Under the pieces are notes generated by a model that ran no database searches, was not told the origin of the DNA, and saw only the letters and a program-made list of their open reading frames with translations. A stretch of DNA of 24,642 nucleotides from an uncultured Chloroflexota bacterium (GTDB taxonomy: Bacteria; Chloroflexota; Anaerolineae; Anaerolineales; Anaerolineaceae). How positions within the stretch are numbered: position 1 is the stretch's first letter; the number at the start of each line of letters is the position of its first letter. A program made the position numbers and the translations under genes. Shown piece by piece: positions 7,275 through 24,642 of this stretch. The stretch lies in the NCBI GenBank assembly GCA_902795255.1, contig CADBKS010000018.1, positions 1 through 24,642 on the forward strand, written 5' to 3'.

Positions 7275-7446
7275 AAAGCCCCCTTTTCGTCATCAAAATC
7301 GGTATTTCCGCATCACAGCAGCGGCCGGTCATTTTGCCGGCGCACCCGGCAGCCGGAAGCGTTTTCAGCAAGACGCGGCCATGCGTACAGGATGTGCAAG
7401 GCCGGGCTGACATCTCTTCACAGCGCCTGCGCGGAGGACCCGATCC

Positions 7447-9030: not shown

Positions 9031-10153
9031 GTGAGCTCCCGTTCAGATAGATCCCGGCACGGTTCTGCCAGGTATACCGTGCGGAACGCCGTTTCGCCTC
9101 AGCGCCAAGGCGCTCCCGAAGTTCGGGACGGTCCAGCACCATGCGGAGTCCGCGCTCCCAGGAGCCGGTATCCTCGGGCGCACAGAAGACAGCACAGCTT
9201 TCGTCCAGGACCTCATGGATCACCGGCAGATCGCTGCTGAGAATGCAGCGTCCCTCCGCCATATATTCAAACATTTTCATCGGAGAACAGATCTCGGCGG
9301 AATTACCGCCGCCGGACCCCGCGATCTGCTTTCCGTACGGCATCAGCAGCACATCACAGGCCGCCTGCGCAAGCGGCAGCTTCGTCCGCGGAAGCGTTCC
9401 GTGGAAAGTGATGTTCGCAAGACCCTTTTCAGCGGCTTCTTCCCGGCAGGCTTTCACGGCATCCTCCGTACCGCCGAACCAGTGGAAATCCGCCTCCGGG
9501 AACCGGGCGGCCAGCTCCGTAAAAAGCCCGCTGCCGCGTCCGGCATAAAGATGGCCGCTGCAGGAGACCGCCGGGCGGTCCGGCGCAAATCCCATCTGCC
9601 GTTTCGCCTCAGCCGCATCCGGCAGACCGGCGTAATCCTCCGGCGAAAAGCCGTTCGGCATGATCAGGCAGTCTTCCGCTTTCAGGTGCGGGAAGCGTTC
9701 CAGGAGCCGGTCCCGCAGTGCTTCCGTGATGCAGAGCACCTTTTTGGGGGCTTTCGCGCGGGTATACATATCGAACCAGCGCACCCCGCCGCCGACCGGC
9801 AGGTCATGGACCTCATAGGCGGAAGGGATTCCGCGGAAAGCGGCCGCCGCCGCGATCTGGATCGTCCATGTATAGTGGACGTCCGCCCCGATCTTCTTTC
9901 CCGCCTTCAGCACATTCAGGGTAAAATCCACCCGGTGCAGCCGCGGGTCCGAAGTCAGCCGGCGAACCGGGAACGGGTCGCAGTACAGCCCGTACCGGTC
10001 CCGGACTTCACTGAAAGCCGCCTCCCCGCTGCCGGGGACAAAAAGATGCACATCATGCCCGAACCGGCGCAGTCCGTCACAGGCCATCAGGACCTGGATG
10101 CTGTTGGCTGTCGCCGAAGGGACCTGAGAAGTAGCAGAACAGGCAATGATCAT
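9023..10153 (-). CDS. Glycosyltransferase family 4 (GT-B fold)
   Basis: A 376-residue cytoplasmic glycosyltransferase using a nucleotide sugar. The N-terminal Rossmann half begins MIIACSATSQVPSATANSIQ and contains the YEVHDLP loop (about 118-124). The C-terminal donor-binding half has FHGTLPRTKLPLAQAACDVLLMPYG (about 250-275) and the PMKMFEYMAEGRCILSSDLP block (about 290-309), the E-x7-E region of GT4 enzymes. The ATG at 10153 overlaps the flippase stop as ATGA. The set of epimerase, flippase, GT4 and membrane transferase points to a surface glycan. The donor and acceptor sugars are not predictable. Confidence 0.92.
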   Translation of the reverse strand: MIIACSATSQVPSATANSIQVLMACDGLRRFGHDVHLFVPGSGEAAFSEVRDRYGLYCDPFPVRRLTSDPRLHRVDFTLNVLKAGKKIGADVHYTWTIQIAAAAAFRGIPSAYEVHDLPVGGGVRWFDMYTRAKAPKKVLCITEALRDRLLERFPHLKAEDCLIMPNGFSPEDYAGLPDAAEAKRQMGFAPDRPAVSCSGHLYAGRGSGLFTELAARFPEADFHWFGGTEDAVKACREEAAEKGLANITFHGTLPRTKLPLAQAACDVLLMPYGKQIAGSGGGNSAEICSPMKMFEYMAEGRCILSSDLPVIHEVLDESCAVFCAPEDTGSWERGLRMVLDRPELRERLGAEAKRRSARYTWQNRAGIYLNGSSHV

Positions 10154-11544
10154 GCTTTTTTCCCTCTTCTTTTTACCGCGGGGACCACCGGCAGCTGCTT
10201 TTCAGCCCGGCGCAGGTCATAAAGCCCGCGGGCCGTCATGATCAGCACGGAAACCGCCAGATAAGCGGAAAGCAGGATCGCCTCGATGTAATAGGCGCCG
10301 CGCGGGACCAGGACGACTGTCAGGAACAATTTCGCCAGCATCGTATAGAAGCTGACCCAGGTCGCGTAATCCGCCTCGTTGAAGGTCAGCAGCAGCGTCC
10401 TGTTCCAGAAAAGGATGTTGGCGGTCCCGTAACCGGCCATCAGGATCATGATGATATTGTAAGCCGGCAGGAATTCCTCCCTGAAGATCTGAATGGAAAG
10501 GCCGAGGAACCTGACCTCATGGAAGAGCAGCGGTTTGCCCAGGAAAAGCAGCCCGAGGAAAGCCGCCCCGGTCCATACGGCCGAAAGGGTCGTGATCTTT
10601 CCCAGCAGCCGGCGGATCCGGCTCCAGTCCTTCCGGATGATCGCGCGGTTCATCTCCGGGTAGGAAGTATCGATCAGCGGATTGATCGGGGTGAGGACCA
10701 TGTTGATGACCGTCATCGCCGTCTTGTAATACCCGGCGTGAAGCGGGCTCAGCAGCGCTCCGACCCAGAGCAGCTCACCATCCCTCGCGAAGAGGTTGAT
10801 CGTAGAGCTGATATTGGTCGAGATCGTGAATTTCAGGATCGACTTTTTGTCATCGATCAGCCGGAGCGGCGCTTTCCACCAGTTCTTACCGATGAAGTTC
10901 GGCAGCCACAGCAGGCAGAGGATCACCGGGATCACCCCGAGCAGGATCTTCCCGATCAGATAAGCGCTCAGGATCCCGATGAGGCCGAGATTTCGCTTTG
11001 TCGCGAAAAGGACGATCAGCGCGACGATCACGTTCTGGACCAGGCTGACCAGCGCGATGGAGCGGTAGCGGTTGATGACCCGCAGAATGCCGTTGGCGGT
11101 CTCCATCACGATCCCGCCGAGAATGCTGATGCCGTAAAACAGGATCAGATTGCTCAGGCCGGCATCATCCAGAAAGATCCGCGCCCCGAGTTTCGCGGTG
11201 CAGGCCATGAAAATGAACGCGAAAAGCGAAGTGACCGCCTCGACTCCGGCGGCAAATTTGATCAGTGCGCCGGTTTTCGGGTGGTCCTGATTGACATAAG
11301 CCTCCCCGACAAAACGGACGACGACCTCGTTCATCCGGAAGGAGAAAAGCTTGTTGACGTTGGTCACATAGCTGGTGATCAGCCCCAGAACACCGTAATT
11401 ATAGACGCCAAGCCGGCGTGTAATAAAAATGGTGAGGAAGACGGAGATGAGGTTCGAAAGGATCAGATACGTGGAATTCCGCAGTACACGGCGGAGTACA
11501 CGGTCATTGAACCAGCCGGCCAGCCTGTCGATCAGATTCTGCAT
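10150..11544 (-). CDS. Wzx-like polysaccharide flippase (MOP superfamily)
   Basis: A 464-residue membrane transporter of the MATE/oligosaccharide-flippase superfamily, which moves lipid-linked glycan units across the membrane. The N-terminus RNSTYLILSNLISVFLTIFITRRLG (about residues 23-47) is the characteristic first helix pair, and LGVYNYGVLGLITSYVTNVN follows. About 12 to 14 hydrophobic segments cover the rest, and the tail is basic (VVPAVKRRGKKA). I use the ATG at 11544, which overlaps the epimerase TGA as ATGA, rather than the longer frame from 11589. The position between epimerase and GT4 genes fits export of the glycan they build. Confidence 0.93.
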   Translation of the reverse strand: MQNLIDRLAGWFNDRVLRRVLRNSTYLILSNLISVFLTIFITRRLGVYNYGVLGLITSYVTNVNKLFSFRMNEVVVRFVGEAYVNQDHPKTGALIKFAAGVEAVTSLFAFIFMACTAKLGARIFLDDAGLSNLILFYGISILGGIVMETANGILRVINRYRSIALVSLVQNVIVALIVLFATKRNLGLIGILSAYLIGKILLGVIPVILCLLWLPNFIGKNWWKAPLRLIDDKKSILKFTISTNISSTINLFARDGELLWVGALLSPLHAGYYKTAMTVINMVLTPINPLIDTSYPEMNRAIIRKDWSRIRRLLGKITTLSAVWTGAAFLGLLFLGKPLLFHEVRFLGLSIQIFREEFLPAYNIIMILMAGYGTANILFWNRTLLLTFNEADYATWVSFYTMLAKLFLTVVLVPRGAYYIEAILLSAYLAVSVLIMTARGLYDLRRAEKQLPVVPAVKRRGKKA

Positions 11545-12515
11545 CAGATCCGGATACCTTTCAGAAAATCCCGCTCCTGAAGGTACCATTCCACCGAGCG
11601 GCGGAGACCTTCGTCCAGTTCCACCTGCGGATCCCAGTTCAGCAGCTTTCTGGCTTTGCTGATATCAGCAAGATTGGCGAGCATATCCGCCTTCACGACG
11701 GGCAGGTGCTCAATGACCGCTTCTTTCCCGATCAGGCCTTCCAGCTTCCGGATCAGATCGTTGATCGAGATCGATTCATGTCCGCCGAGATTCATCACTT
11801 CAAAGCCGACCTCCTTCAGTCCGAGGATACAGCCGCGGGCGATATCATCCACATAGGTAAACCCGCGGGTCTGGGTGCCATCCCCGTTCAGCAGGATCGG
11901 TTCGCCCTCCGTGATCCAGCGGATAAATCGGTAGATCGCCATATCCGGGCGCCCGGCCGGGCCGTAAACCGTGAAGAAGCGGAAAATCGTTACGTCGATG
12001 CCATACAGATAATGGTAGGCATGGCACTCCGCCTCCGCCCCTTTCTTACTGGCGGAATACGGCTGGAGCGGACGGTCCGAAGAGGCAGTCTCATCGGTCG
12101 GATACGGCGCGTTTTCGCCGTAAATGCTGGAGGTCGAGGCCTCAATAAATTTTTTCACATCATGGCGGCGGGCGCATTCCAGCAGGTTGAGCGTTCCGCC
12201 GGTATTGACATTGAGATACAGCCAGGGATCCTTCATGCTCAGGCGGACGCCCGGGATCGCGGCCATGTTCACGACCGCGTCAAAGCGGTTCGCGGCAAAC
12301 AGTTTTTCAAGTCCCTCAAAATCGGTGATATCCGTCCGGGAAAAACGGAACCCGTCCCGGTCTGTCAGTTTTTTCAGGCGGTATTCCTTCAGGCGCCGGT
12401 CATAAATATCGTTCAGGCAATCGATACCCGTAACTTCCGTTCCTTCATCCAGGAGCATTTCGGAGATCTTCGCCCCGATAAACCCGGCAGCCCCGGTAAC
12501 TAAGACATGTCGCAT
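11544..12515 (-). CDS. NAD-dependent epimerase/dehydratase (UDP-glucuronate 4-epimerase-like)
   Basis: A 323-residue short-chain dehydrogenase of the extended class acting on a nucleotide sugar. The NAD-binding G-x2-G-x2-G is GAAGFIG (8-14). The catalytic triad is visible as Ser in STSSIYG (128-130) and Tyr153-x3-Lys157 in PYSASKK. The FFTVYGPAGRPDMA run (about 178-191) resembles UDP-glucuronate/galacturonate epimerases (CapI/Uge), but a UDP-glucose 4-epimerase or dehydratase cannot be excluded. The ATG at 12515 has AAGGG about 6 nt upstream. It is first in the polysaccharide operon, behind a 141-bp gap with palindromic DNA. Confidence 0.9.
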   Translation of the reverse strand: MRHVLVTGAAGFIGAKISEMLLDEGTEVTGIDCLNDIYDRRLKEYRLKKLTDRDGFRFSRTDITDFEGLEKLFAANRFDAVVNMAAIPGVRLSMKDPWLYLNVNTGGTLNLLECARRHDVKKFIEASTSSIYGENAPYPTDETASSDRPLQPYSASKKGAEAECHAYHYLYGIDVTIFRFFTVYGPAGRPDMAIYRFIRWITEGEPILLNGDGTQTRGFTYVDDIARGCILGLKEVGFEVMNLGGHESISINDLIRKLEGLIGKEAVIEHLPVVKADMLANLADISKARKLLNWDPQVELDEGLRRSVEWYLQERDFLKGIRI

Positions 12516-12554
12516 AAAAAGCCCTTATCTATCCAACTAAGATCTAAGAAAGAA

Positions 12555-12588
12555 GCTGTCCGCAGCCCGGATCCGGGGCATCGGCAGC
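12555..12588 (-). other. Extended imperfect palindrome in the epimerase leader
   Basis: A perfect 12-bp palindrome CCCGGATCCGGG (12566-12577) is flanked by further matching arms (CCG/CGG and GCTG/CAGC). On the minus strand it is followed by a pyrimidine-rich TTCTTTCTTAG. It could be an attenuator or a terminator for read-through from nagA. Confidence 0.35.
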
Positions 12589-12622
12589 CGGTTCCTTCTC
12601 CGTATTCTGTTATAAAATGAGA

Positions 12623-12642
12623 GCCCCGCGTGCTGCGGAGGC
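12623..12642 (-). terminator. Probable intrinsic terminator of nagA
   Basis: On the minus strand GCC(U)CCGC pairs with GCGGGGC across AGCAC with one bulged U, and is followed by CTCATTTTAT. It lies 15 bp after the nagA stop. The weak T-run makes the call moderate. Confidence 0.5.
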
Positions 12643-12656
12643 CATTTTCTGACCTG

Positions 12657-13841
12657 TCAGGCTTCAGCTGCCGGCCGGCTGCTGAAAACCGTATGTCCTT
12701 CAATGATCGTCTGTCTGACCGTAAAGTCCGCATCCAGCAGGACCAGATCGGCCAGCTTGCCTTTTTCGATCGAGCCGGTCTCCCCGTCGATCCCGATCAG
12801 GCGGGCAGCGTTCAGGCTGCTGCACGGCCAGGTCTCCTCCAGCGAGGCACCGCTGTTGACCGTGAAATTCTTCAGCCCGCGCTCCATCGTCAGGGCACTT
12901 CCCGCCAGCGCACCGTTGGGAATGCGCAGCTCCGTGCCGTTATGGCTCACGATGAATTCCTGCCCGGCTTCTTTCTGAACATAGTGCCCGTCCGGCAGTC
13001 CGGAAGGACGGATCATATCGGTGATCAGGACCATCCGGTCCCGCCCTTTGGCGGCCCAGGCGATCTTCTGCGCAGCCGGGTGGGAGTGGATGTTGTCGCA
13101 GATCAGTTCACAGAAATAGCCGTCCAGAGCCAGCGCGCTGCCGACCGTCCCGGGCTCCCGGTGATTGAACGCCCCCATTCCGTTGTAAAGATGGGTCACG
13201 CTGCGGAAACCGTGGTCCAGCGCCTCCCGCATCACTTCAAAGCCCGCGGCCGTATGTCCGGCGGAGACGCTGGCACCTTCTTTAGCGAAAATATCCGCGG
13301 CAGCCATATTCTCCGGGAATTCCGGGGCGATCGAGATGCGTTTGATCACACCCGCATCGAGGAATGCATAACATTCGTCCGGCGTGGCAAGGCGGATAAA
13401 TGCCGTATCCTGCGCACCGCATTTGGCGGCATTGAAATAAGGTCCTTCCAGATGGACCCCCAGGATCTTCGCAAAGCTCCCGCGCCTGCCGACGAACTCA
13501 TTCACACAGCGGATCGCTTTCACCGTCTGCTCACGCCCGGCCGTCATGGTGGTCGGCAGAAAAGTCGTCACCCCGTGGCGGACATGGTAAGAGGCGATCT
13601 CCAGGATCCCCTCCGGATCCGCATCCATTGTGCAGTGCCCGAGGCAGCCATGGGTATGGATATCGATCAGCCCCGGCAGCAGGTTCAGCCCTTCGGCTTC
13701 GATCACCTTATCCGCTGCCTGCAGGGGCGCTTCCCCTTCCCCGAAATCGGCGATCCGTTCGCCGTCCGTCAGCAGCCAGCCAATGAAGGAAGGCCGTCCC
13801 GGTGTAAATATATGCGCGCTGCGGATCAGTTTTTTGCTCAT
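12657..13841 (-). CDS. nagA: N-acetylglucosamine-6-phosphate deacetylase
   Basis: A 394-residue amidohydrolase that removes acetate from GlcNAc-6-phosphate, feeding amino-sugar recycling or catabolism. The length is normal. Metal and substrate motifs are in order: LIDIHTHG (His62, His64), HLEGPYFN with the metal-binding Glu (about 133-140), SAGHTAAG (about 197), THLYNGMGAFNHREPG (about 218-233), and the catalytic Asp in LITDMIRPSGLPDGHY (about 276-291), here TDM instead of the commoner TDA. The ATG at 13841 has GGGAG 6 nt upstream. nagB, the usual partner, is not adjacent. Its proximity to the envelope operon may reflect wall-sugar recycling, but a terminator lies between them. Confidence 0.96.
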   Translation of the reverse strand: MSKKLIRSAHIFTPGRPSFIGWLLTDGERIADFGEGEAPLQAADKVIEAEGLNLLPGLIDIHTHGCLGHCTMDADPEGILEIASYHVRHGVTTFLPTTMTAGREQTVKAIRCVNEFVGRRGSFAKILGVHLEGPYFNAAKCGAQDTAFIRLATPDECYAFLDAGVIKRISIAPEFPENMAAADIFAKEGASVSAGHTAAGFEVMREALDHGFRSVTHLYNGMGAFNHREPGTVGSALALDGYFCELICDNIHSHPAAQKIAWAAKGRDRMVLITDMIRPSGLPDGHYVQKEAGQEFIVSHNGTELRIPNGALAGSALTMERGLKNFTVNSGASLEETWPCSSLNAARLIGIDGETGSIEKGKLADLVLLDADFTVRQTIIEGHTVFSSRPAAEA

Positions 13842-13941
13842 TTTTTACTCCCGATCGATCACGCCGCAGGTGGCCCCGCGGCTGCAGTTCCTGTCCGGAT
13901 CATAACCGGAAAGCCCGAAAACAGGCGCTTTCCATAATTCT

Positions 13942-13997
13942 AAATTATAACCATTTCAAATCAAAAACAGGGAAGAAATTCAATTATCGTTTATAAT
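13942..13997. promoter_or_regulatory. Divergent promoter region for nagA (-) and the tRNA (+)
   Basis: The 171-bp gap between nagA and the tRNA is abruptly A+T-rich from about 13930. On the plus strand TATAAT at 13992-13997 lies 15 bp before the tRNA. On the minus strand a TATAAT lies within ATTATAACC (about 13944-13949) facing nagA. Neither has a good -35 at 16-18 bp, so only the -10 boxes are supported. Confidence 0.5.
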
Positions 13998-14012
13998 CGA
14001 GAACGTACGCTG

Positions 14013-14085
14013 GGGCCCGTAGCTCAGCGGTCAGAGCAGGCGGCTCATAACCGCTTGGTCGCAGGTTCGAACCCTGCTGGGCCCA
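14013..14085 (+). tRNA. tRNA with CAT anticodon (probably tRNA-Ile2, otherwise elongator Met)
   Basis: A complete 73-nt cloverleaf. Acceptor stem GGGCCCG/TGGGCCC (one G-T pair); D arm GCTC-8 nt-GAGC; anticodon stem GGCGG/CCGCT with loop CTCATAA (anticodon CAT at 14046-14048); variable loop TGGTC; T arm GCAGG-TTCGAAC-CCTGC; discriminator A. The 3' CCA is not encoded. The anticodon arm and variable loop closely resemble bacterial Ile2 tRNAs, whose C34 is changed to lysidine by TilS, more than Bacillus-type elongator Met (loop TTCATAC). It is not an initiator because the 1-72 pair is matched. The accessory DNA begins at its 3' end. Confidence 0.95.
14064..14085 (+). other. Putative attachment site in the tRNA 3' end
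   Basis: The T arm plus acceptor 3' strand of the tRNA faces an integrase gene 237 bp away, and base composition changes here. Tyrosine recombinases commonly use this part of a tRNA as attB. The matching direct repeat expected at the far end of the element is not in the window, so the boundaries are inferred. Confidence 0.4.
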
Positions 14086-14102
14086 CTGAACACCTATGCG
14101 CA

Positions 14103-14121
14103 ATTCGGAACTTTTCCGAAT
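14103..14121. repeat. Perfect 7-bp inverted repeat after the tRNA
   Basis: ATTCGGA and TCCGAAT flank a 5-nt spacer, 18 bp past the tRNA end. It could be part of tRNA 3' processing or a recombinase-binding site near the attachment core. Function is not shown. Confidence 0.4.
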
Positions 14122-14127
14122 CTTAAC

Positions 14128-14164
14128 AAAACAGAACTTCCGATTTTCCGGAAGTTTTGTTTTT
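14128..14164. terminator. Strong intrinsic terminator after the tRNA
   Basis: A 15-bp stem with one G-T pair (14128-14142 with 14149-14163) closes a 6-nt loop. The 3' arm ends TTTTGTTTT, giving a U-rich tail for the tRNA. The 5' arm begins with an A run, so it may also stop minus-strand transcription coming from the integrase. The remaining DNA up to the integrase stop is A+T-rich and holds no gene that I can see. Confidence 0.85.
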
Positions 14165-14321
14165 ATTAATGAGTAAATCATTATATATTAAGAATCATTA
14201 AGGAATAAATGGCGATTTTTCGTTAAGGTTCTAAAAAAGTCACTTTTTGCAGCACGAAATCCAAATGGTTTTTAAAATGTATTTGAATTGGCTCATCCAA
14301 GCGGTTTTTTCCTCATCATAA

Positions 14322-15476
14322 TCATTTATTTACGAGTTTTCCAAGCAAATCCAGCATCAAATCCAGTTTTTCTTCAGTCAGTTTGTCTCTGGAAGGCAGG
14401 TTTTGTCGTTCAGTATCTTCGCACATGGTGCTGATTGCATCTGTAATTTGATCCATATTCCGCTGTCCATACCCTGCCGCAACTGCCGGAGTATCTCCGA
14501 TGTTTCGTGCGATCGTTTCCATATCTGCATAGTTCTTCGCAAATCTTTTCAAATACAATACATGCAGATGACGAAGCGTATGCGGACGATGATAGGTGAT
14601 ACCAACCTTTTCGCACAAGTCCATAAGATCTCTGCGATATCCTGATGCCCTGGAGATTCCTGGTTTCTGTGAAAAATCGATCAATCCGGTCGTACAGGAA
14701 AATGGAGCAAACCAGTAAGGGTAGGGATGGAATTCGGCAGTAACCTCATCCGGAGCCGGAATATCCCCAACCTGTTCCAGGTACCGTGTTTTTACGATTT
14801 TCTGCCATTCACGCACGGTTTCAAGCATTCCGCTTACTTCCGAGTTATTGATCAAAGCAGTCCGGATATTTTTGGAATTCTTCAGATGCGTTCCATGTTC
14901 AACCATCTGGATAATAAACGGTTTGTCATTCTGAAGATAAACATCCGTAAAAGGTAATGTCACCAGTGCGCCGTCACGAAGTCCGGAAAGGAATCCCATC
15001 AGCATCGCCGCTTTTGCCCGCTTCATATTCAATGTTTCCGGCCGATAGTCAGCAACCTTCAGGATATCTTCAAACTTGTAAGCATCAGTGGAGATCTGTT
15101 CCATCTTCCAGTTTGTATTGCGGCGATCACGAATCCGGATCGCATCAATATAATCATCCGAAATATTGATCTTTTTCTTCTTCCGCAGCCACACCAGAAA
15201 ACGTTTGGTATACTCGAGGATCTTCCGGCGGTATTCAAATTCCAGCCTGGTATCGGTGATTTCACTTTTCAGATTATACAGAAAAGCCGTGAAACTTTCT
15301 CTTTCCACTTTTTCAATTTTTGCGATCGGCGTCATGCCGGCATAAATGATAAATTTCATGAGTGCATTTCTCATTGCTGCCAGCGTTTTTTCACTGTAAA
15401 TGCCCTCATTTCTGAGGCTTTCAATATAGTCATTTAAAAATGCCCAATTTGTTCGGTTGATCGGTTCATCGTTCAT
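14322..15476 (-). CDS. Tyrosine recombinase/integrase
   Basis: A 384-residue site-specific recombinase, likely responsible for integration and excision of the island at the adjacent tRNA. The SAM-like core-binding domain is about residues 8-100 (VERESFTAFLYNL, YTKRFLVWLRKKKKI). Catalytic residues seen: Arg167 in FLSGLRDGALVTL, His299-x2-Arg302 in HRPHTLRHLHV, and the nucleophile Tyr336 in AAGYGQRN. Where most members have His or Trp (the LGH motif), this one reads NIGDTP with Asp328. A hydrophobic C-terminal helix (KLTEEKLDLMLDLLGKLVNK) follows. The ATG at 15476 overlaps the upstream small-protein stop as ATGA. The gene is oriented toward the tRNA. Confidence 0.9.
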   Translation of the reverse strand: MNDEPINRTNWAFLNDYIESLRNEGIYSEKTLAAMRNALMKFIIYAGMTPIAKIEKVERESFTAFLYNLKSEITDTRLEFEYRRKILEYTKRFLVWLRKKKKINISDDYIDAIRIRDRRNTNWKMEQISTDAYKFEDILKVADYRPETLNMKRAKAAMLMGFLSGLRDGALVTLPFTDVYLQNDKPFIIQMVEHGTHLKNSKNIRTALINNSEVSGMLETVREWQKIVKTRYLEQVGDIPAPDEVTAEFHPYPYWFAPFSCTTGLIDFSQKPGISRASGYRRDLMDLCEKVGITYHRPHTLRHLHVLYLKRFAKNYADMETIARNIGDTPAVAAGYGQRNMDQITDAISTMCEDTERQNLPSRDKLTEEKLDLMLDLLGKLVNK

Positions 15477-15898
15477 TCTTGTGTTTCTCCTTCATAATTC
15501 TTTTTCGAGGCAAATCTGCAGAAGATCCTTCCGCAATTGGGGCAGATATACTGATAAACATCGATCTTTTTTCTTCTCAGGATATTCACCGGTTTATCCG
15601 GCAGGACGACAACCTGTTTGCAGGAAACACATACGTTTTCATTAGTGTTGACGGTCTGTTTGGTATAGGTTTTGTAATACCAGTCCCGGAATGCCTTACC
15701 ATTGACCACCAATGTGCGGCTGCCTTCCGGCTTTACAAAAGGATGTCCATCCATGTGGCAATAAACGCGGTAGATTTGACGGCGGGCAAAACCAATATGA
15801 TCAGCGAGCTCATTGGTGGTGTAGTCCATATTCAACAGAGACCGCATTCTCAATTTCTGTTCCTTGTTCAATTCACCTTTGCGATGAAAAATCTGCAT
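15473..15898 (-). CDS. Small HTH plus zinc-ribbon DNA-binding protein (candidate excision/regulatory factor)
   Basis: A 141-residue protein, not matched to a named family by me. Residues about 26-48 (YTTNELADHIGFARRQIYRVYC) have the spacing of a helix-turn-helix of the AlpA/excisionase-like kind. A middle basic segment with WYYKTY follows. The C-terminal half has a zinc ribbon, C-x2-C at 90/93 and C-x2-C at 119/122, with one more Cys at 127. I start at the ATG at 15898 because GGAGG (15905-15909) lies exactly 6 nt upstream; a longer open frame reaches 15931. It is translationally coupled to the integrase, suggesting a directionality factor or a regulator of excision. That role is inference. 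Confidence 0.72.
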   Translation of the reverse strand: MQIFHRKGELNKEQKLRMRSLLNMDYTTNELADHIGFARRQIYRVYCHMDGHPFVKPEGSRTLVVNGKAFRDWYYKTYTKQTVNTNENVCVSCKQVVVLPDKPVNILRRKKIDVYQYICPNCGRIFCRFASKKNYEGETQE

Positions 15899-16179: not shown

Positions 16180-18471
16180 TCAAACTCCGAGCTTTGATTC
16201 CTGTGACAGCAGGCCGATCCCATCAAAGATCTTGCCCTTGTTTGTTTTCCGCTTGTTAAATCCCTTTGACTGCAAACCGGAAACAAATGACTTTACGCCG
16301 CGGGGGTGCTCGCCGTTTTTTTGGCAATATTCCTTGTATTCGTCATAAAGCTTACCGGAGCTGGTGCTGAACCCTGTTCCGAGGACACAACAGGCATCGA
16401 TAAAATCATTGATCCAGTCATTCTGTTCACGATACTCTGCAGTCGCAGTTGCCACAACAGAAGGCATGGTAAACTCAAATCCAAATTGATAAGCTTTTCG
16501 GGCTCCTTCAATGATCCAGGACAGGATTGCAGGACCGGCATTCTTTACGAGAAAATCTGTATAGTTTTTGATGTCTGTGGCTTTCGGAATTTTCGTATTG
16601 AACGGGATAACGATCAAACGCCGCCAGATCCCGTTATCAATAGATTTGACATTTGGGAGATGGTTTGTATACAGGATCGCTGTATGGGAAGGAATAAAGC
16701 TGAAAGGCTGTTTGAATTTTATTTCGCCCAGAATCGGATCCGTCGAACAAATTTTTTTGACCATCGACGTGCTGAGCGTCTGATTTTCCTCCAATTCGGA
16801 AGCAATCACCAGACGTTTTCCTTTCAGTTCCGCAATTTCAGCACCGAGGTTCACCTTACTGTTGCTCATCAGCAAATTTGTCGAGATGACCCCACCATAA
16901 GATCCAAATACATGTAGAATCGTATTCCAAAATGTCGATTTGCCATTGCCGCCATCTCCGATGGCTATGATCAGCCCTTCACGCAATACTTTGCCGAAAG
17001 CTGCGGTACCAACTGACATCTGTACATATTCAATCAGAGCCTTGTCACCGGAAAAGAAGAGATCCAGCGCATCCAGCCAGAGCTGCTTTCCCTGATCGTC
17101 GGCAGAAACGAGCGTCATTTTGGTAAAATGGTCTTCCGGTCGGTGTTCACGCTTTCCCGCCAATCCCTCTGGAAGATAATAAGCCTCGTCTGGCGTATTG
17201 AACAGGTTGGGATCACTATCAAATACGTTGAAATCGACCTGCACCATCGGTTTTACTGCATCCAGAACTGCCTTCATATGGTTCATATTCCGGTATTTCA
17301 GAACATACTTATGGTACAATTCTGCCTTGGTATAGCGAATAAGCAGGCTTAGCTCCAGCGGAGTTAATTCTTCTATTTTTGCCTTTTTCAGCTGCTCGAT
17401 AGAGCATCCCTTGGCTTCTGCTTCTGCTTCTGCCGATTTTACCGAGTCTTCCGCATCAGCAAGCTGCATATCAAGGAATTCCTCAATAGCTCCGACCGCA
17501 TACTGATCGGAATATGACCAGATCTTATCGTTATAACGGAGATAACCCGTTGAATCCGTATAAAGGATCTCATCACCAAACTCCCGGACAAAGACTTTTC
17601 CCTGACCAATATCGGTATAATCCGAAGGCTCCATTGACGCTTCCGCCTGGATTTCACCTTCCGCCGGGCAATAATGACTGGCACTCTTCCAGATTGATTC
17701 CAATTCTTTTGCCGAAAGCGGTGGGATGCATTTCTCTGCTTCCTGGTCAAAGAGAGCTCTTGTCCGATCGGAAAGCCCAAACCGCTTCATAACCCGCATT
17801 GCATAGCGAAAAAGCGTGGAATTACGCTCTCCTTCCTGAATAATTGGCTGACCTGTTTTTGTTTTCTCAGGATCATTTGAAACAGCAGCTTTCGTATCCT
17901 GGGCTTCCGTATTATTGACAATGTTTTCATCTTTTGTCGGGAACTTTGGCATTTGATCGATCGTTTTTGATCCTTCATGCCACACAATATCCTCTTCAGT
18001 AACAGGGCTGCCAAAGATAAATCGTCCGGCATCCAATGCATTATTGTCGAAAAACGGATAATGGATATATAGTCTGCTCTTGAGTCTTGCATAATCTGAT
18101 TTGGATGCACACTCATTAATCGGAAAATACATGTGAAAACGCGGACGTTCAGATTTTTCACCCTTTTCCTTCATATTATTCCGGCTGGGTACCAATACAA
18201 ACGAATAATCGCCAAATAAAGATATCATACTGTCCGCGTTCAGCCAACCTTCCGGCTTGTCGGTCTGATCATTATCGCAGTCCATCACAACGACATTGGA
18301 TTTGATGAAGTTGTCATTACTCCGGCGGTTGTCCTTGTATTCGGCACATACATGATCAAAGCCCATAGCATGCGCCATATCAATCACATCTTTGATTTCC
18401 AGCTTATCCGGATAGATCACATTCGTCTGGTTTTCGATCACACCATCATGAAAAAAGATATCGAATTTCAT
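16180..18471 (-). CDS. Primase-polymerase / SF3 helicase fusion (P4/D5-type replication protein)
   Basis: A 763-residue replication initiator typical of satellite phages and integrative plasmids. N-terminal archaeo-eukaryotic primase-like domain (about 1-165): catalytic acidic pair Asp64 and Asp66 in VVVMDCDND, then RPRFHMYFPI with His113 and DAGRFIFG. A PriCT-type linker (about 205-270, ERNSTLFRYAMRVMKRFGLS to ELESIWKSASHY) follows. After the D5_N region comes the superfamily 3 helicase core: Walker A GDGGNGKST near residue 507, ASELEENQTLS as the acidic motif, and LYTNHLPNVKSIDNGIWRRL with the sensor and arginine-finger region. The ATG at 18471 has only a weak ribosome site (AAAGGA 14 nt upstream). 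The origin candidate abuts its 3' end. It should unwind and prime the island's own replication. Confidence 0.92.
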   Translation of the reverse strand: MKFDIFFHDGVIENQTNVIYPDKLEIKDVIDMAHAMGFDHVCAEYKDNRRSNDNFIKSNVVVMDCDNDQTDKPEGWLNADSMISLFGDYSFVLVPSRNNMKEKGEKSERPRFHMYFPINECASKSDYARLKSRLYIHYPFFDNNALDAGRFIFGSPVTEEDIVWHEGSKTIDQMPKFPTKDENIVNNTEAQDTKAAVSNDPEKTKTGQPIIQEGERNSTLFRYAMRVMKRFGLSDRTRALFDQEAEKCIPPLSAKELESIWKSASHYCPAEGEIQAEASMEPSDYTDIGQGKVFVREFGDEILYTDSTGYLRYNDKIWSYSDQYAVGAIEEFLDMQLADAEDSVKSAEAEAEAKGCSIEQLKKAKIEELTPLELSLLIRYTKAELYHKYVLKYRNMNHMKAVLDAVKPMVQVDFNVFDSDPNLFNTPDEAYYLPEGLAGKREHRPEDHFTKMTLVSADDQGKQLWLDALDLFFSGDKALIEYVQMSVGTAAFGKVLREGLIIAIGDGGNGKSTFWNTILHVFGSYGGVISTNLLMSNSKVNLGAEIAELKGKRLVIASELEENQTLSTSMVKKICSTDPILGEIKFKQPFSFIPSHTAILYTNHLPNVKSIDNGIWRRLIVIPFNTKIPKATDIKNYTDFLVKNAGPAILSWIIEGARKAYQFGFEFTMPSVVATATAEYREQNDWINDFIDACCVLGTGFSTSSGKLYDEYKEYCQKNGEHPRGVKSFVSGLQSKGFNKRKTNKGKIFDGIGLLSQESKLGV

Positions 18472-18616: not shown

Positions 18617-21600
18617 TTGAAAATCATTGATAATATAAACGAGCTCGTAAAAGACGATCTTGAGAAAACTATTCGCAAGGGCAGCAAGGTATCAATTGCA
18701 GCTGCTTGTTTTTCGATGTATGCCTATAGTACGCTCAAAAAACAGTTAGATTCCGTCGATGAATTCCGTTTCATATTTACCTCTCCTACATTTGTCACGG
18801 AAAAGAGTGAAAAACAAAAACGGGAATTCTTTATTCCCCGGCAGACACGGGAACAAAGTTTATACGGGACAGAATTCGAAATCAAACTTCGCAATGAGAT
18901 GACACAAAAGGCGATCGCCCGAGAGTGCGCGGATTGGATCCGTCAAAAAGCACGCTTCAAATCCAATGTTACCGGCGAGAATATGATCGGTTTCATGACC
19001 GTGGCAAATTCTACGGAAGAGGCGGCATACACACCGATCGGCGGTTTCACGACTGTTGATCTCGGTTGTGAACGGGGCAATAACAGCTATAACATGGTTA
19101 CCCGTATGGAAGCTCCATTTTCCATGCAGTACATGAATCTTTTCAACTCACTCTGGAATGATCGGATCAAATTGCAGGATGTTACCGAAAAAATCATTGA
19201 TAATATAACCACGGTTTATAACGAAAATTCTCCGGAATTCATCTATTTTATGCTGCTTTATCATGTTTTCAGTGAATTTCTGGATGACATTTCTGAGGAT
19301 GTCCTTCCGAATGAAGCTACAGGATTCAAGCAAAGCAAGATCTGGTGTATGCTTTATGATTTTCAGAAAGATGCTGTCCTTGCGATCATCAACAAACTGG
19401 AAAAATACAATGGCTGCATTTTAGCAGACAGCGTCGGGCTCGGAAAAACCTTTACTGCGCTGGCGGTAATCAAATACTATGAAAACCGCAATAAAAGCGT
19501 TCTGGTATTATGTCCAAAAAAGCTTTCAGATAACTGGAATACATTCAAAGATAACTATGTCAATAACCCAATCGCTTCAGACCGGCTGAATTACGATGTA
19601 TTGTTTCATACGGATCTTTCACGAAAAGGCGGGATTTCAAATGGTCTGGATCTTGACCGACTGAATTGGGGAAACTATGACCTGGTCGTGATCGATGAAT
19701 CCCATAACTTCCGAAATGGTGCAGGAACCCACGCCAACACGCAGGAAAACCGTTATGTGAAATTGATGGAGAAGGTAATCCGTACCGGTGTGAAAACAAA
19801 AGTGTTGATGCTTTCGGCAACACCGGTAAATAATCGTTTTACCGATCTGCGCAATCAGCTTGCCCTTGCCTATGAAGGAAATGCGGATATCATCAATGAA
19901 AAACTTTCAACCAAAAAGTCCATCGATGAGATATTCCGACAGGCACAAAAAGCTTTTAATGAATGGAGCAAACTGAAACCGGAAGAAAGAAAAACGGATG
20001 TCCTGCTTAGAAAACTGGATTTTGACTTTTTTGAGCTTCTTGACAGCGTGACGATTGCCCGATCCCGCCGGCATATTGAGAAATATTACAATATGGCTGA
20101 TATCGGCCAGTTTCCGCAGCGGCTAAAACCGGTTTCTATTCGATCCGAGCTTACAGATTTAGGGAGCGCAATCACCTATAATCAGATTTATGAACAACTT
20201 TCCTATCTGACCCTGTGTATTTATACCCCTTCCAACTATATTTTTCCGAGCAGGCTGTCCAAATATACGGAATTAGCTCATAACAAGGGAAATAATCTGA
20301 CACAGCAGGGGCGTGAACAGGGTGTTCAGCGGTTAATGAGCATCAACTTGCTCAAACGACTGGAGAGTTCGGTTTATTCATTTCGACTGACTTTAGAGCG
20401 TATCCTATTTCATATCAGACAGACTATAGATGCCATTAATGCTTTTGAAAAACGTGGTTCTGGCAGCCTTGACCTGACTGAGGTCTCTGAAGATGACCTG
20501 GATCTTGATGACAGCAATATGGACGATTTCATTGTGGGTAAAAAGGTCATGATCGATCTCAATGATATGGATTGGGTAACCTGGCGTGCAGAGCTGCAGC
20601 AGGATGCCGAAACATTGGAACTATTGAGCTTGATGGTGAAAGATATTTCGCCGGAACATGACAGCAAACTTCGGGATCTGTTTCAGCTTCTTGACAAAAA
20701 AATGCAAAATCCGCTCAATGAAGGGAACCGCAAAATTCTGATTTTTTCCGCATTTTCGGATACCGCGGAATATCTTTATGACCATGTCAGCGCATATATG
20801 AAAAAGCGCTATGGTCTGAATTCTGCTGTTATTACGGGAACGATTGAAGGACGAACGACAATCAAAGGGTTGAAGCCGACTTTAAACAATGTACTGACCT
20901 GTTTTTCGCCCCTTTCAAAAAACAGAGATGTCCTGATGCCGAACAGTACAAATGATATTGATCTTCTGATCGCCACGGACTGTATTTCTGAGGGTCAAAA
21001 CCTGCAGGATTGTGATTATCTGATCAATTATGATATTCATTGGAATCCGGTGCGGATCATCCAACGCTTCGGTCGGATCGATCGTATCGGCAGCCGGAAT
21101 CAAGTCATACAATTGGTCAACTTCTGGCCGAACATGACGCTGGATGAATATATCAATCTAAAATCGCGCGTGGAAACGCGCATGAAGATTTCTGTTATGA
21201 CCTCCACCGGAGACGATGACCTGATCAATCCTGAGGAACAGGGTGATCTGGAATATCGTAAACAGCAGCTAAAACGGCTTCAAGAAGAAGTGGTTGATAT
21301 CGAGGATATGTCCGATGGAATTTCCATCATGGACCTCGGGCTGAATGAGTTCCGGCTGGACCTATTGGATTATATCAAGACTCATGACGACCTGAGCACA
21401 AAGCCGAAAGGACTGCATGCAGTCGTTCAGGCGGATAATGGAAATCCGGAAGGTGTGATCTTTGTTTTGCGGAATGTCAATGACCATGTGAACATTGACC
21501 ATCAAAACCGGATCCATCCTTTCTATATGATCTATATTGGGATAGATGGAGAAATCATTTGCGATTATCTGAATCCCAAAAAATTGCTGGACACAGTTCG

Positions 21601-21859
21601 GCTGCTTTGCCGCGGAAAGAGTGAACCGCTTCTTTCCCTATGCCGGAAATTCAATGCTGAAACCGATGACGGACGGAATATGAAAGAAATCTCCGACTTG
21701 CTGAACGAAGCGATCGGATCGATCATCAATGTAAAAGAAGAAAGCGATATTGACAGTCTGTTCTCTCCGGGAGGGACTTCGGCATTATTGTCGGATATCA
21801 GCGGGTTGGAAGACTTTGAACTGATCTGTTTTCTGGCGGTTATGGAGAAAGATTCATGA
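18617..21859 (+). CDS. SNF2-type helicase with PLD-like N-terminal domain (putative defence component)
   Basis: A 1080-residue superfamily 2 ATPase starting at TTG. Residues about 1-200 look like the PLD-like N-terminal fold of a helicase family (KVSIAAACFSMYAYSTL, FRFIFTSPTF). There is no H-x-K and in fact no histidine before His216, so this domain is unlikely to cut DNA. The motor has DSVGLGKT (271-278, Walker A Lys277), DESH (360-363), LMLSATPVNNR (about 397-407) and the C-terminal RecA-like motifs ATDCISEGQNLQ and IQRFGRIDRIGS (about 815-826). It probably translocates on double-stranded DNA. The TGA overlaps the DUF4391 ATG, so the genes are coupled. Its genomic partners suggest a restriction-like anti-phage role; this is inference. 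Confidence 0.88.
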   Translation: MKIIDNINELVKDDLEKTIRKGSKVSIAAACFSMYAYSTLKKQLDSVDEFRFIFTSPTFVTEKSEKQKREFFIPRQTREQSLYGTEFEIKLRNEMTQKAIARECADWIRQKARFKSNVTGENMIGFMTVANSTEEAAYTPIGGFTTVDLGCERGNNSYNMVTRMEAPFSMQYMNLFNSLWNDRIKLQDVTEKIIDNITTVYNENSPEFIYFMLLYHVFSEFLDDISEDVLPNEATGFKQSKIWCMLYDFQKDAVLAIINKLEKYNGCILADSVGLGKTFTALAVIKYYENRNKSVLVLCPKKLSDNWNTFKDNYVNNPIASDRLNYDVLFHTDLSRKGGISNGLDLDRLNWGNYDLVVIDESHNFRNGAGTHANTQENRYVKLMEKVIRTGVKTKVLMLSATPVNNRFTDLRNQLALAYEGNADIINEKLSTKKSIDEIFRQAQKAFNEWSKLKPEERKTDVLLRKLDFDFFELLDSVTIARSRRHIEKYYNMADIGQFPQRLKPVSIRSELTDLGSAITYNQIYEQLSYLTLCIYTPSNYIFPSRLSKYTELAHNKGNNLTQQGREQGVQRLMSINLLKRLESSVYSFRLTLERILFHIRQTIDAINAFEKRGSGSLDLTEVSEDDLDLDDSNMDDFIVGKKVMIDLNDMDWVTWRAELQQDAETLELLSLMVKDISPEHDSKLRDLFQLLDKKMQNPLNEGNRKILIFSAFSDTAEYLYDHVSAYMKKRYGLNSAVITGTIEGRTTIKGLKPTLNNVLTCFSPLSKNRDVLMPNSTNDIDLLIATDCISEGQNLQDCDYLINYDIHWNPVRIIQRFGRIDRIGSRNQVIQLVNFWPNMTLDEYINLKSRVETRMKISVMTSTGDDDLINPEEQGDLEYRKQQLKRLQEEVVDIEDMSDGISIMDLGLNEFRLDLLDYIKTHDDLSTKPKGLHAVVQADNGNPEGVIFVLRNVNDHVNIDHQNRIHPFYMIYIGIDGEIICDYLNPKKLLDTVRLLCRGKSEPLLSLCRKFNAETDDGRNMKEISDLLNEAIGSIINVKEESDIDSLFSPGGTSALLSDISGLEDFELICFLAVMEKDS

Positions 21860-22506
21860 TCGGTTTGCCAAAAAGCACAGAATTTAACCGGCGTATTCCG
21901 AAACAGAAATTTTATGAAAATCTGGGCGTAACGCCGACACAAAAACGTTTTTTTATTGATCAGATCAACACGATCTGGTGGCGGAATAAAATTGCTCCGG
22001 CAACAATGAACCTCGCTGCCGGAAAAACCGTGAGCGAAATTGAAGTGTTCGAGATAAAGCTTTCGATTTCACAACTAGATGAGTCTGTGTTACAACTGAT
22101 TGATCAGGAAATTCCGTATCATATACTCTTTCTGTTGGAATTTGATGGAAAATATCAGGCATGGACGGCATATAAGGAAGCAATAGCTACCGGTAAAAAT
22201 GCCTTCAAAGTTGGAGCTTACTATCACACCGATTGGATAACGGAATCTGAACTTCCGCTGCATTCCGATGGCCTGAACATGGATCAGGTCTATGAGAATT
22301 TTGTCCGTCAGATCGCCGGGGAGGTTTTGAAGGCTGAAAATGAAGAGAGCCTGAAGGAAGCAGTCGAACGGGACACACAGAGAAAGCAACTTGAAAAGCA
22401 GATCGCTGCGCTGCAGGCAAGAATACGGAAAGAAAAGCAATTGAATAAGCAAATACAGATGAATGCAGATTTGAAAAAGCTGAAAAAGGAACTTGAGGTG
22501 TTATAA
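21856..22506 (+). CDS. DUF4391-like protein
   Basis: A 216-residue protein that I recognise as DUF4391-like. It opens with GLPKSTEFNRRIPKQKFYENLG; the core (about 25-150) alternates hydrophobic strands with conserved aromatics (INTIWWRNKIAP, FLLEFDGKYQAWTAYKE, AYYHTDWI). The last 60 residues (about 155-216, rich in Glu, Lys and Gln, e.g. QLEKQIAALQARIRKEK) should form a coiled coil, suitable for holding a complex. The ATG overlaps the helicase stop as ATGA, and the methyltransferase ATG follows one base after the TAA. As I recall, this family often sits between a helicase and a type III-like methyltransferase gene. Its biochemical function is unknown to me. Confidence 0.8.
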   Translation: MIGLPKSTEFNRRIPKQKFYENLGVTPTQKRFFIDQINTIWWRNKIAPATMNLAAGKTVSEIEVFEIKLSISQLDESVLQLIDQEIPYHILFLLEFDGKYQAWTAYKEAIATGKNAFKVGAYYHTDWITESELPLHSDGLNMDQVYENFVRQIAGEVLKAENEESLKEAVERDTQRKQLEKQIAALQARIRKEKQLNKQIQMNADLKKLKKELEVL

Positions 22507-22507
22507 C

Positions 22508-24394
22508 ATGGAAAAGATGAGAATGGAAACTTCGGATTTATCCTCGGAAAATGTAGAAAAGATCGGCAATTTATTTCCAAACTGTACTACAGAGACTATC
22601 GATGAAAAAGGCAAGCCGAAAAAAGTTATCAACTTTGATTTGCTGAAACAAATGCTTTCCGGAGACGTCGTCGAAGGTGACGAAGCTTATGAATTCACCT
22701 GGGTCGGGAAGAAAGCTGCTATTCTCGAAGCCAATAAACCCATCCGGAAGACATTGCGTCCCTGTCCGAAAGAAAGTGTGAACTGGGATACTACTGAAAA
22801 CCTCTACATTGAAGGTGATAACCTCGAAATCCTAAAGCTCCTGCAGGAGAGTTACCTCGGAAAAATAAAAATGATCTACATTGATCCGCCCTACAATACC
22901 GGAAATGACTTTATATATCCTGATTCTTATATTATGGAAAGTGAAGAATATGAAACAGGAACTGGCTATTATGATCAGGATGGAAATATAAATTATAGCC
23001 GTGAAAATGGGATCTCCCAGGGAAGATATCATTCGGATTGGTGTTCACTGATTTATTCGAGACTGATGCTTGCAAGAAATTTGTTATCGGATGACGGTAT
23101 ATTATTTGCTTCTATCGATGATAACGAACTTTCTAATCTTATAAAAATAGGGCAGGAGGTCTTTGGCGCAAGTAATTATATCGGTACTTTTATTTGGGAA
23201 AAAAGAAAGAATAGAGAAAATAGAAAAATAATATCAGTTCGCCATGATTATATAGTTTGTTTTCTAAAGGACTATGATCAAAGAATTAATGCGATTGGAT
23301 TAGAGGAAATGGATGAAGCTGCATTAAAGCGTTATCAAAATCCAGATAATGATCCAAGAGGCCCATGGAAATCAGATCCCGCACATGCTCAAGGAGGACA
23401 TGGTACAAAATCACAGTTTTATACATTAATTGCCCCCAATGGAAAACAACACGCATTGCCAAGTGGGAGATGTTGGGTTTATACACAGAAAGAAATGGAA
23501 AGAGCGATTGCCGAAAATAGGATTTGGTTTGGTCAGGATGGAAATGGAGTGCCTCGTATAAAAACATATTTATATGCAAAAGAAAGAGGGTAGACACCAG
23601 AAACACTGCTTTTTGCAGATAAAGTTGGGACAAATGATTCGGCCAAAAGAGAACTTGTGTCTTTGTTCGATAATCTTGCTGTTTTTGAGACGCCAAAACC
23701 AATATCTCTGATAAAACATCTTCTAAAAATTTGTAAGGATGGGCAAAACGGAATCTACATGGATTTCTTCAGCGGTACTGCAACAACTGCACACGCTGTT
23801 ATGTTGCAGAACGCAGAGGACAGTGGAAATAGAAAATTCATTATGGTTCAGCTTCCGGAACCGTGTAATGATAATAGTGAAGCCTATAAAGCTGGATTTA
23901 ATACAATTTCAGATATTGGTAAAGAAAGAATTCGAAGAGCAGGTAAGAAAATAAAAAAGGATAGTCCATTGACCACAAAAGATTTAGATATTGGATTTCG
24001 TGTGTTCAAATTAGATAGTTCTAATATGAAAGATGTCTACTATAGCGTAGGAGAAACCAATCAAACAGATTTGATCGAGATGGCTTTCAATATCAAAGAA
24101 GATAGGACAGACCTTGATCTTTTTTTTAGCTGCCTATTGGAATGGGGGCTGCTGCTTTCGCTGCCCTATACTTCCGAAAGGATAGGAAACTACACAGTTC
24201 ATACATATAATGATGGGGATCTCATTGCCTGCTTTGATATGAATGTTCCTGAATCAGTAATCAAAATCATCGCAAAACGCAAGCCTCTTCGTGCTGTGTT
24301 CCGCGACAGTTCTTTTGCCGATGACTCTGCAAAAATCAGTGTTGGGGAAATCTTTAAGGTTCTTTCTCCGGACACCCGGATAAAAGTGCTTTAA
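22508..24394 (+). pseudogene. Type III Mod-like adenine DNA methyltransferase, interrupted by an in-frame TAG
   Basis: The frame from ATG 22508 (GAGGTG 7 nt upstream, inside the DUF4391 gene end) to TAA 24394 encodes 628 codons, the normal length of a type III Mod subunit, but codon 362 (23591-23593) is TAG. Before it: the N-terminal MEKMRMETSD region, motif IV DPPY (126-129, in KMIYIDPPYNTGNDF) and the target-recognition region. After it, in the same frame: TPETLLFADKVG, TPKPISLIKHLL and the SAM-binding motif I DFFSGTATTAHAV (about 419-431). The order IV then I is the beta class of N6-adenine methyltransferases. The 361-residue product would lack SAM binding. A sequencing error, a recent nonsense mutation or read-through are all possible. 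A second mod gene follows directly. Confidence 0.85.
23591..23593 (+). other. In-frame amber codon splitting the Mod gene
   Basis: TAG stands between ...YAKERG and TPETLLF, where related Mod proteins continue without a break. There is no frame change on either side. One base change from CAG, AAG, GAG, TGG, TTG, TCG or a Tyr codon would explain it. Confidence 0.9.
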
Positions 24395-24454
24395 TCCGTT
24401 TACGATATTATTACTCGTCTATTTATGCATAACATCGGACAGGATGGAGAAAAA

Positions 24455-24642
24455 ATGGAAAAAATGAGAATGGAATCACCGGATTTACAGCAGGATAATG
24501 TAGAGAAGATTGCTGCCATGTTCCCGAATTGTGTGACAGAAGCTTTGGATGTAGAACGAAGCACGGCGGAAAAGAAGGTTTACCGCAAAGTTGTGAATTT
24601 TGAAATGCTGAAGCAGATGCTTTCCGAGGACATGCTCGAAGG
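24455..24642 (+). CDS. Second, paralogous type III Mod-like methyltransferase (N-terminal 62 codons; runs off window)
   Basis: ATG 24455 has GGAG (24446-24449) 5 nt upstream. The visible 62 codons start MEKMRMESPDLQQDNVEKI and continue with FPNCVTEALD and KVVNFEMLKQMLSEDM. They align throughout with the N-terminus of the Mod gene just before it (MEKMRMETSDLSSENVEKI, FPNC, KVINFDLLKQMLSGD), with a short insertion near residue 35. This is therefore a tandem paralogue, diverged enough not to be a recent copy. The 60-bp gap after the first Mod gene has no terminator, so it is in the same operon. An in-frame ATG at 24425 is a less likely start. The catalytic motifs lie beyond the window. Confidence 0.85.
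   Translation, partial: MEKMRMESPDLQQDNVEKIAAMFPNCVTEALDVERSTAEKKVYRKVVNFEMLKQMLSEDMLE

Follow-up and report, generated by a model that had tools for sequence, protein, structure and literature searches.

Classical type III restriction-modification (R-M) systems consist of mod and res only. EcoP15I, which assembles as Mod2-Res1, is such a two-gene system, and the Res of type III is taught as sliding, not pumping, along DNA. We analyzed a 24,642-nucleotide stretch of DNA from an uncultured Chloroflexota bacterium (assembly GCA_902795255.1, contig CADBKS010000018.1, positions 1 to 24,642; hereafter, the window), whose right end carries genes for an SNF2-type helicase (HEL), a DUF4391 protein, and a type III methyltransferase (Mod). 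Sequence comparison suggests, with a probability that we put at about 0.6, that these genes form the left part of a type III R-M variant with four genes, where DUF4391 serves to tether a nuclease-dead SNF2 translocase to Mod-Res. As seen in relatives, the variant shares with EcoP15I the Mod and Res homologs, the order mod-res, and the motor and PD…ExK motifs of Res; it differs in having two further conserved front genes, HEL and DUF4391, and slots for passenger genes. Because HEL and DUF4391 are constant partners in close relatives, we consider the set a variant rather than the classical type III form.

Three other described systems resemble parts of this locus. On the Lactococcus lactis plasmid pLd8, a protein with PLD, SNF2, and helicase-C domains lies beside a type IIG-like adenine methylase with a TaqI_C domain, and in the excerpted report its authors surmise that cutting is the work of the PLD domain (PMC6098607). 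Likened by description, the pLd8 operon and ours both place such a helicase beside an adenine methylase; however, the pLd8 methylase is type IIG-like and the excerpt mentions no Res, whereas here the methylase is a Mod, relatives carry a Res, and the PLD motif is gone (PMC6098607). In Type-2 systems related to bacteriophage exclusion (BREX), as described in the excerpted survey, an HKD domain is fused to a Swi2/Snf2 helicase and an N6-methylase is found in the locus, but these systems center on a DUF499 ATPase together with DUF3780 (PMC12839542). Neither DUF499 nor DUF3780 was among the Pfam matches of the window operon, and no search for them was made in the relatives. The survey describes HKD-Snf2 helicases in DUF499-centered systems and, where a system lacks the HKD fusion, other nucleases; as excerpted, this is the nearest published idea that we have seen (PMC12839542). 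Finally, the C-terminal helicase part of HEL matches models of DrmD, a protein of class 1 defense island system associated with restriction-modification (DISARM), at 158.1 bits, but the window HEL is far below the NCBIfam equivalog cutoff of 610 bits, and no other DISARM gene was among the Pfam or PADLOC matches of the window operon. Type III R-M, HKD-SNF2 helicases, and an operon of a PLD-SNF2 protein with a methylase are already known. In the literature searched, we found no four-gene standing variant, no partner-dependent HKD loss, and no kinship of DUF4391 with a methylase; DUF4391 itself was mentioned there once, as a row of an enrichment table, with no function described.

The window operon consists of four features:
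18617..21859, plus strand: HEL, 1080 aa, TTG start; an SNF2 motor behind a degenerate PLD-like N-terminal domain (about residues 1-240).
21856..22506, plus strand: DUF4391 protein (216 aa) with an alpha/beta core followed by a coiled-coil tail at about residues 166-215.
22493..24394, plus strand: Mod 1, type III N6-adenine methyltransferase; a single frame interrupted by an in-frame TAG at 23591-23593.
24425..24642, plus strand: Mod 2, the N-terminal part (72 codons) of another type III Mod, truncated where the window ends.

The first-pass annotation, made from the letters of the window, had named a 1080-residue SNF2 helicase and recommended comparison with defense-system profiles. This comparison returned PADLOC model C3a139 ('HKD+Snf2') for HEL and PDLC03634 for Mod. 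The C3a139 match (5.3e-124, 413.6 bits) covers residues 2-1075, making it a whole-length profile match, and with Pfam matches to Helicase_C (2.9e-15) and SNF2-rel_dom (1.3e-12) it bears out the helicase. The motor motifs (Walker A, DESH, SATP, and QRFGRIDR) are kept in the window copy. The label 'PLD-like' fared less evenly: the first 245 residues match no Pfam family at E 0.01, and the label stands because HEL aligns with relatives that have an intact PLD motif. In alignment with these relatives, HxK of the HKD catalytic motif was not found in the window HEL, in agreement with the claim that no nuclease motif is visible. The start of the DUF4391 gene overlaps the HEL stop (ATGA), and its product, as proposed, is a DUF4391 protein with a coiled-coil tail (PF14335, 2.3e-59, 201.6 bits, curated cutoff 29.9; two long C-terminal helices predicted). 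The presence of HEL, DUF4391, and a downstream type III methylase on the plus strand was confirmed, but the supposed tandem Mods turned out to be a single broken Mod followed by the beginning of a second: open reading frames (ORFs) 22493-23593 and 23657-24394 are in the same frame and correspond to neighboring stretches (2-355 and 383-620) of PDLC03634, with E-values of 9.7e-129 and 6.6e-84. At least 9 contigs encode a DUF4391 identical to that of the window, the longest of them 88,593 bases.

We asked how fixed this gene set is by surveying PF14335 in 299 genomes of one phylum, 25 of which have DUF4391. Of the 28 places found, two genomes account for two each, one broken gene is counted as two, and two were detected by PF14335 and missed by our custom profile. 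HEL lies directly upstream of DUF4391 in 27 of the 28, the other beginning at a contig end; in 25 of the 28, a Mod follows within about 1.5 kb. The families thus co-occur in a fixed helicase-DUF4391-Mod order rather than rarely, and the earlier suggestion that HEL and DUF4391 form an extra module of a type III-like system holds for a recurrent arrangement. In a set of loci picked by DUF4391 (80 of 101 genome loci and 7 viral loci), all four genes lie on the same strand by ORF calls in 52 of 87; another 6 lack DUF4391 alone in the ORF calls, and 29 lack one or more parts, mostly on short or cut contigs. Two loci, L032 and L072, have 8.9 and 3.3 kb remaining with no Res there. By tblastn, DUF4391 was detected in 100 of 100 loci, 93 of which had been picked by DUF4391 and 7 by HEL.

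Viral loci, which include near-duplicates, were examined from the HEL side. With at least 6 kb downstream, 32 of 35 close HELs have DUF4391, Mod, and Res. Among 17 distant HELs with room, 7 have all three, 5 have Mod and Res without DUF4391 by the custom profile, 1 has Res only, and 4 have none; the gene of L175 missed by the custom profile is a PF14335 member at 1.6e-36. At L188, HEL (5858-9073) is followed directly by Res (9073-12114), HxK is lost, and neither Mod nor DUF4391 was detected. From the Res side (Res with at least 6.5 kb upstream), HEL, DUF4391, and Mod are all present for 29 of 33 close Res (3 have Mod only and 1 has neither), 13 of 21 at middle distance (1 HEL only, 7 Mod only), and 3 of 11 distant Res, the other 8 being Mod-Res pairs without HEL. 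Given these counts by distance, the HEL-DUF4391 module appears to have entered a single part of the type III tree.

The order HEL-DUF4391-Mod-Res recurs across bacterial phyla and on one archaeal plasmid. It was present in 12 of 14 plasmid regions opened, some with passengers, from E. coli, Citrobacter, two Acinetobacter, Aeromonas, Methylotuvimicrobium, Phaeobacter, Mycolicibacterium, Leuconostoc, Enterococcus, Brochothrix, and the archaeon Methanomethylovorans hollandica. On one Acinetobacter plasmid an insertion element breaks Mod, and on the Enterococcus and Brochothrix plasmids the second gene is annotated as hypothetical. The Methylotuvimicrobium set (L088) lies at 6720-15846 on plasmid MEALZ_p of Methylotuvimicrobium alcaliphilum 20Z. 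A Sphingobium plasmid has the set broken by insertion elements, and the Neotabrizicola record stops after DUF4391. A stretch near-identical to the E. coli form (L090) was found in 10 of 5,426 complete E. coli genomes, in 9 of them over at least 80%.

By sequence, the Mod and Res of the set are homologs of the EcoP15I subunits. One Mod matches the solved Mods 6k0w and 4zcf, and the Res profile matches EcoP15I Res at 3.5e-101, with Pfam domains PF19778 and ResIII. After Mod, the relatives carry a Res that has both motor and PD…ExK motifs. Of 131 Res from Mod+Res loci that exceed 900 aa, 130 show the nuclease motif, and the sole Res without it (L039) runs off its contig; the motor motifs and PD…E-T-K are invariant in 11 of 11 aligned Res. 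Because an intact Res lies downstream in the relatives, we reject for this family the first-pass suggestion that HEL and DUF4391 replace Res. Across 56 relatives, sliding identity of Mod drops to 0.21-0.28 at positions 250-375, compared with 0.53-0.80 at positions 0-200 and 425-600, which marks a variable target-recognition part. Tandem Mods occur in 5 of 138 Mod+Res loci (L080, L149, L197, L380, and L051), and one Mod is in pieces in 6 of 138; in L051, the first Mod is broken, as in the window, and a longer Mod comes after it.

A sister system shows HEL with a different partner. Four distant viral HELs (L183, L184, L185, and L194) precede, in place of the set, a protein of 1200-1560 aa that is an Eco57I-type methylase, with a TaqI_C specificity domain in three of the four; L181 is a fifth viral locus of this type, cut by a contig end. 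This architecture has no Res. The sister HELs carry the full PLD motif (H-G-K, G-S-S-N-F-T, and N-x-E-L), which in alignment is absent from the window HEL and other Mod+Res HELs. PLDc_2 matches the sister HEL N-terminus at 2.4e-10, and no Pfam PLD match was obtained in the N-termini of the window and L090 HELs.

The state of the HEL nuclease motif depends on the partner. We surveyed three phyla having the sister HEL at 1e-60 (23 of 345, 53 of 337, and 15 of 346 genomes), hand-picked 80 stretches from this and the PF14335 survey, and sorted 226 distinct HELs, each at least 1000 aa long, by partner. HELs beside an Eco57I-type methylase have HxK in 28 of 28 cases and those beside Mod+Res in 1 of 138, with both HxK and GSSN gone in the other 137. 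Where only DUF4391 or Mod was seen, HxK was found in 0 of 31; where there was room but neither partner, in 14 of 15, 12 of these 14 being distant HELs and the one HEL without it being that of L188, which has Res directly behind; and where the sequence was too short to see a partner, in 8 of 14. With one HEL per identity cluster, the counts were 11/11 (methylase) versus 1/22 (Mod+Res) at 60% identity and 4/4 versus 0/10 at 50%. Of the 138 Mod+Res HELs, 135 retain every one of the three motor motifs tested, as do 25 of the 28 HELs coupled to the methylase.

In trees of the motor part, outer branches carry HxK and Mod+Res HELs are spread over several branches, which takes 3 changes by unordered parsimony or, counted on the printed tree, 7 losses if HxK was never regained; backbone support is weak, and the two trees disagree on the position of the sister clade. 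Overall, these comparisons suggest that the spare nuclease of HEL decayed after coupling to Res, probably more than once, and that the cutting job passed from HEL to another protein of the system. In L479 and L480, the motif is partly kept (partial decay), with the PLDc_2 match of L480 below cutoff. The exception among Mod+Res loci has a HEL matching PLDc_2 at 43.5 bits (cutoff 27) and a Res matching RE_endonuc at 129.4 bits (cutoff 23.4), and with two nucleases it is a possible intermediate:
L389 (G025:C1), minus strand: HEL 12516-15773, DUF4391 11750-12511, Mod 9908-11743, Res 6924-9896; PLD and Res nuclease motifs both intact.

The sister methylase also bears on the role of DUF4391. The same three TaqI_C-bearing methylases show a weak PF14335 match near the N-terminus, and PF14335 is among the precomputed domains in 40 of 120 listed methylase homologs. 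An hhalign comparison of the DUF4391 profile with 119 methylase N-termini gave 95.1% (E 3e-8, 164 columns), and six control stretches gave 0.1-1.6%. Of the 28 HEL-methylase loci, 26 have the large ORF, and an all-Pfam scan of their N-termini found PF14335 at E <=0.01 in 18 and MmeI_hel in 3. Taken together, these profile matches assign a DUF4391-like N-terminal domain to the sister methylase; therefore, by the fusion argument, free DUF4391 likely contacts the methylase or its complex. The sister-type methylase of L185 (3336-8018) has a C-terminal DUF3800 (PADLOC PDC-M04A) and no PF14335 match at 0.01.

The predicted fold of DUF4391 (predicted local distance difference test, pLDDT, 88.9) has a core and two long C-terminal helices, residues 166-192 and 196-215, with no clear match. 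We compared pairwise distances between proteins over 45 non-plasmid loci, treating the last 56 columns of DUF4391, the coiled coil, as the tail. The core gave rho 0.57 against HEL and 0.52 against Res, whereas the tail gave 0.79 against Res and 0.53 against HEL. A tail-Res value of 0.79 was reached in 0 of 999 permutations, core pieces of equal length reached at most 0.55 against Res, and in 500 subsamples of 30 loci the tail exceeded the core against Res in 98.8%. Where DUF4391 and Mod are more than 500 bp apart (25 loci), tail-Res remained 0.77 (core-Res, 0.27), which makes mere adjacency a weaker explanation. The recognition part of Mod covaries with nothing (<=0.05), which may reflect swapped specificity or saturation.

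Gene order, motif state, fusion-like homology, tail-Res covariation, and the type III nature of Mod and Res, each read from comparison, are consistent with the following course of events in the four-gene variant. By analogy with EcoP15I, Mod would recognize and methylate an asymmetric site, and Res would be an SF2 motor with a PD…ExK nuclease that cuts unmethylated DNA. HEL would be an SNF2 translocase of double-stranded DNA (dsDNA), with an N-terminal PLD (HKD) nuclease that decayed after Res had taken over the cutting. DUF4391 would be its tether, with a core that corresponds to the N-terminal domain of the sister methylase and a coiled-coil tail that docks on Mod-Res. Mod would find an unmethylated site, Res would engage as in EcoP15I, HEL would pump, and Res would cut; held by DUF4391, HEL may pump along the duplex to help Res reach or dwell at the cutting place, or to clear bound proteins. 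Such a widespread form, with its four genes and an additional motor of the SNF2 type, would alter the picture of type III systems, and the contribution of this motor is testable. DUF4391, a large family, would gain a concrete role to test, and HEL would provide a case of a nuclease decaying inside one protein where a partner brings another.

Several observations weigh against this model. The window ends inside Mod 2, before any Res position, leaving its own Res out of sight, and its first Mod is broken. A narrower profile comparison of DUF4391 and the methylase gave only 2.2%, and the single-protein PF14335 matches inspected in sister methylases fall below the family cutoff. The core exceeded the tail against HEL in 65% of subsamples and was not better in 35%, the core against the catalytic part of Mod, given Res, gave -0.02, and in the 12 loci without passengers the tail and core were nearly alike against Res (0.82 and 0.69). 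The covariation can reflect co-inheritance of neighboring DNA rather than contact. On the weak-backbone tree, L389 is placed inside the decayed group, where loss followed by reacquisition would be possible, and the structure model of HEL is poor (pLDDT 60.9). Physical coupling, translocation on target DNA, and restriction of phage or plasmid are steps that we infer.

A bolder form of the four-gene reading, which we hold tentatively and regard as possible rather than probable, makes HEL-DUF4391 a portable motor-and-adaptor module that joins different methylase-nuclease systems. Originally, HEL would have cut by its HKD nuclease, with DUF4391 lying within the methylase. On joining Mod-Res, the nuclease role would have passed to Res, DUF4391 would have been released as a separate tether whose tail docks on Res, and HEL would drive restriction, possibly from a single site, by true dsDNA translocation; L389 would then be a living intermediate.

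Among the alternatives, HEL-DUF4391 might serve modification or self-protection rather than restriction, by helping Mod reach its sites or by holding Res back. The loss of the HEL nuclease motif while the motor motifs stay would fit this, as would the DUF4391-like sequence at the N-terminus of the sister methylase, but the tail tracks Res at least as closely as Mod (0.76-0.78 versus 0.67), and we consider such a role unlikely.

HEL-DUF4391 and Mod-Res might instead be two independent defense units that share a promoter, with the HEL-DUF4391 pair as an embedded passenger. The operon does hold many passengers: measured between profile matches, the gap between DUF4391 and Mod exceeds 300 bp in 65 of 133 loci, that between Mod and Res in 53 of 138, and either slot in 82 of 133. 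Moreover, the distant Res are mostly Mod-Res pairs without HEL, as counted above for those with room upstream. The passengers vary, yet HEL and DUF4391 are nearly constant beside close Res and Mod, the HEL nuclease motif depends on the partner, and the DUF4391 tail follows Res, all of which make independence rather improbable in our view.

Decay of the window copy would account for the premature stop in Mod 1, the in-frame TAG noted above, and broken Mods do occur in relatives, in pieces or, in L051, followed by a longer one. However, the HEL and DUF4391 frames are intact, a second Mod directly follows, and the TAG could be a sequencing error; we give this explanation a small chance. Least likely is that the degenerate PLD domain still cuts via other residues, giving two working nucleases. 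That the domain is retained and well conserved in Mod+Res loci would fit this, but it has lost HxK and GSSN in nearly all of them and has no Pfam PLD match in the two N-termini scanned.

To characterize the passengers, we scanned 20 cluster-chosen ORFs of the 115 counted between HEL and Res, together with 6 plasmid ORFs; the 115 include artifacts such as antisense ORFs, and no passenger frequencies can be derived from them. Other genes, some of them defense-like, often occupy the slots. Those scanned include a DUF1016/YhcG nuclease (PADLOC PDC-S02), RhuM (PDC-S05), TIR, ThsA-Macro, Schlafen AlbA_2, a YobI ATPase (Tmn model), GmrSD, an OLD-type ATPase-TOPRIM, a UvrD-like protein, and AAA_21 with DUF4276, and four scanned passengers had no Pfam match at 0.01. 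A third, rarer slot lies between HEL and DUF4391, where L050 and L057 (8224-9963 in both) have a GmrSD-type gene, assigned by Pfam in L050 and by similarity in L057. In L015 (9140-9976) and L049 (9172-9999), a second, divergent DUF4391 gene lies between HEL and the usual DUF4391; the L015 copy matches PF14335 at 2.1e-20, the L049 copy is assigned by similarity only, and in alignment both lack the usual coiled-coil end.

Left of the window operon, a tRNA-Met (14013-14086), a candidate integrase or tyrosine recombinase on the minus strand (14322-15476; a weak match, below its cutoff), and a P4-type primase, also on the minus strand (16180-18471), suggest a mobile island. The first-pass annotation had placed the operon on a tRNA-integrated island; these left-hand genes agree with it, but no right boundary was seen, as the last 18-40 bases of the tRNA occur only once on the plus strand of the window. 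On the other side of the tRNA, a nagA-like gene on the minus strand (12657-13841; N-acetylglucosamine-6-phosphate deacetylase, TIGR00221, 304 bits) is likely the chromosomal flank.

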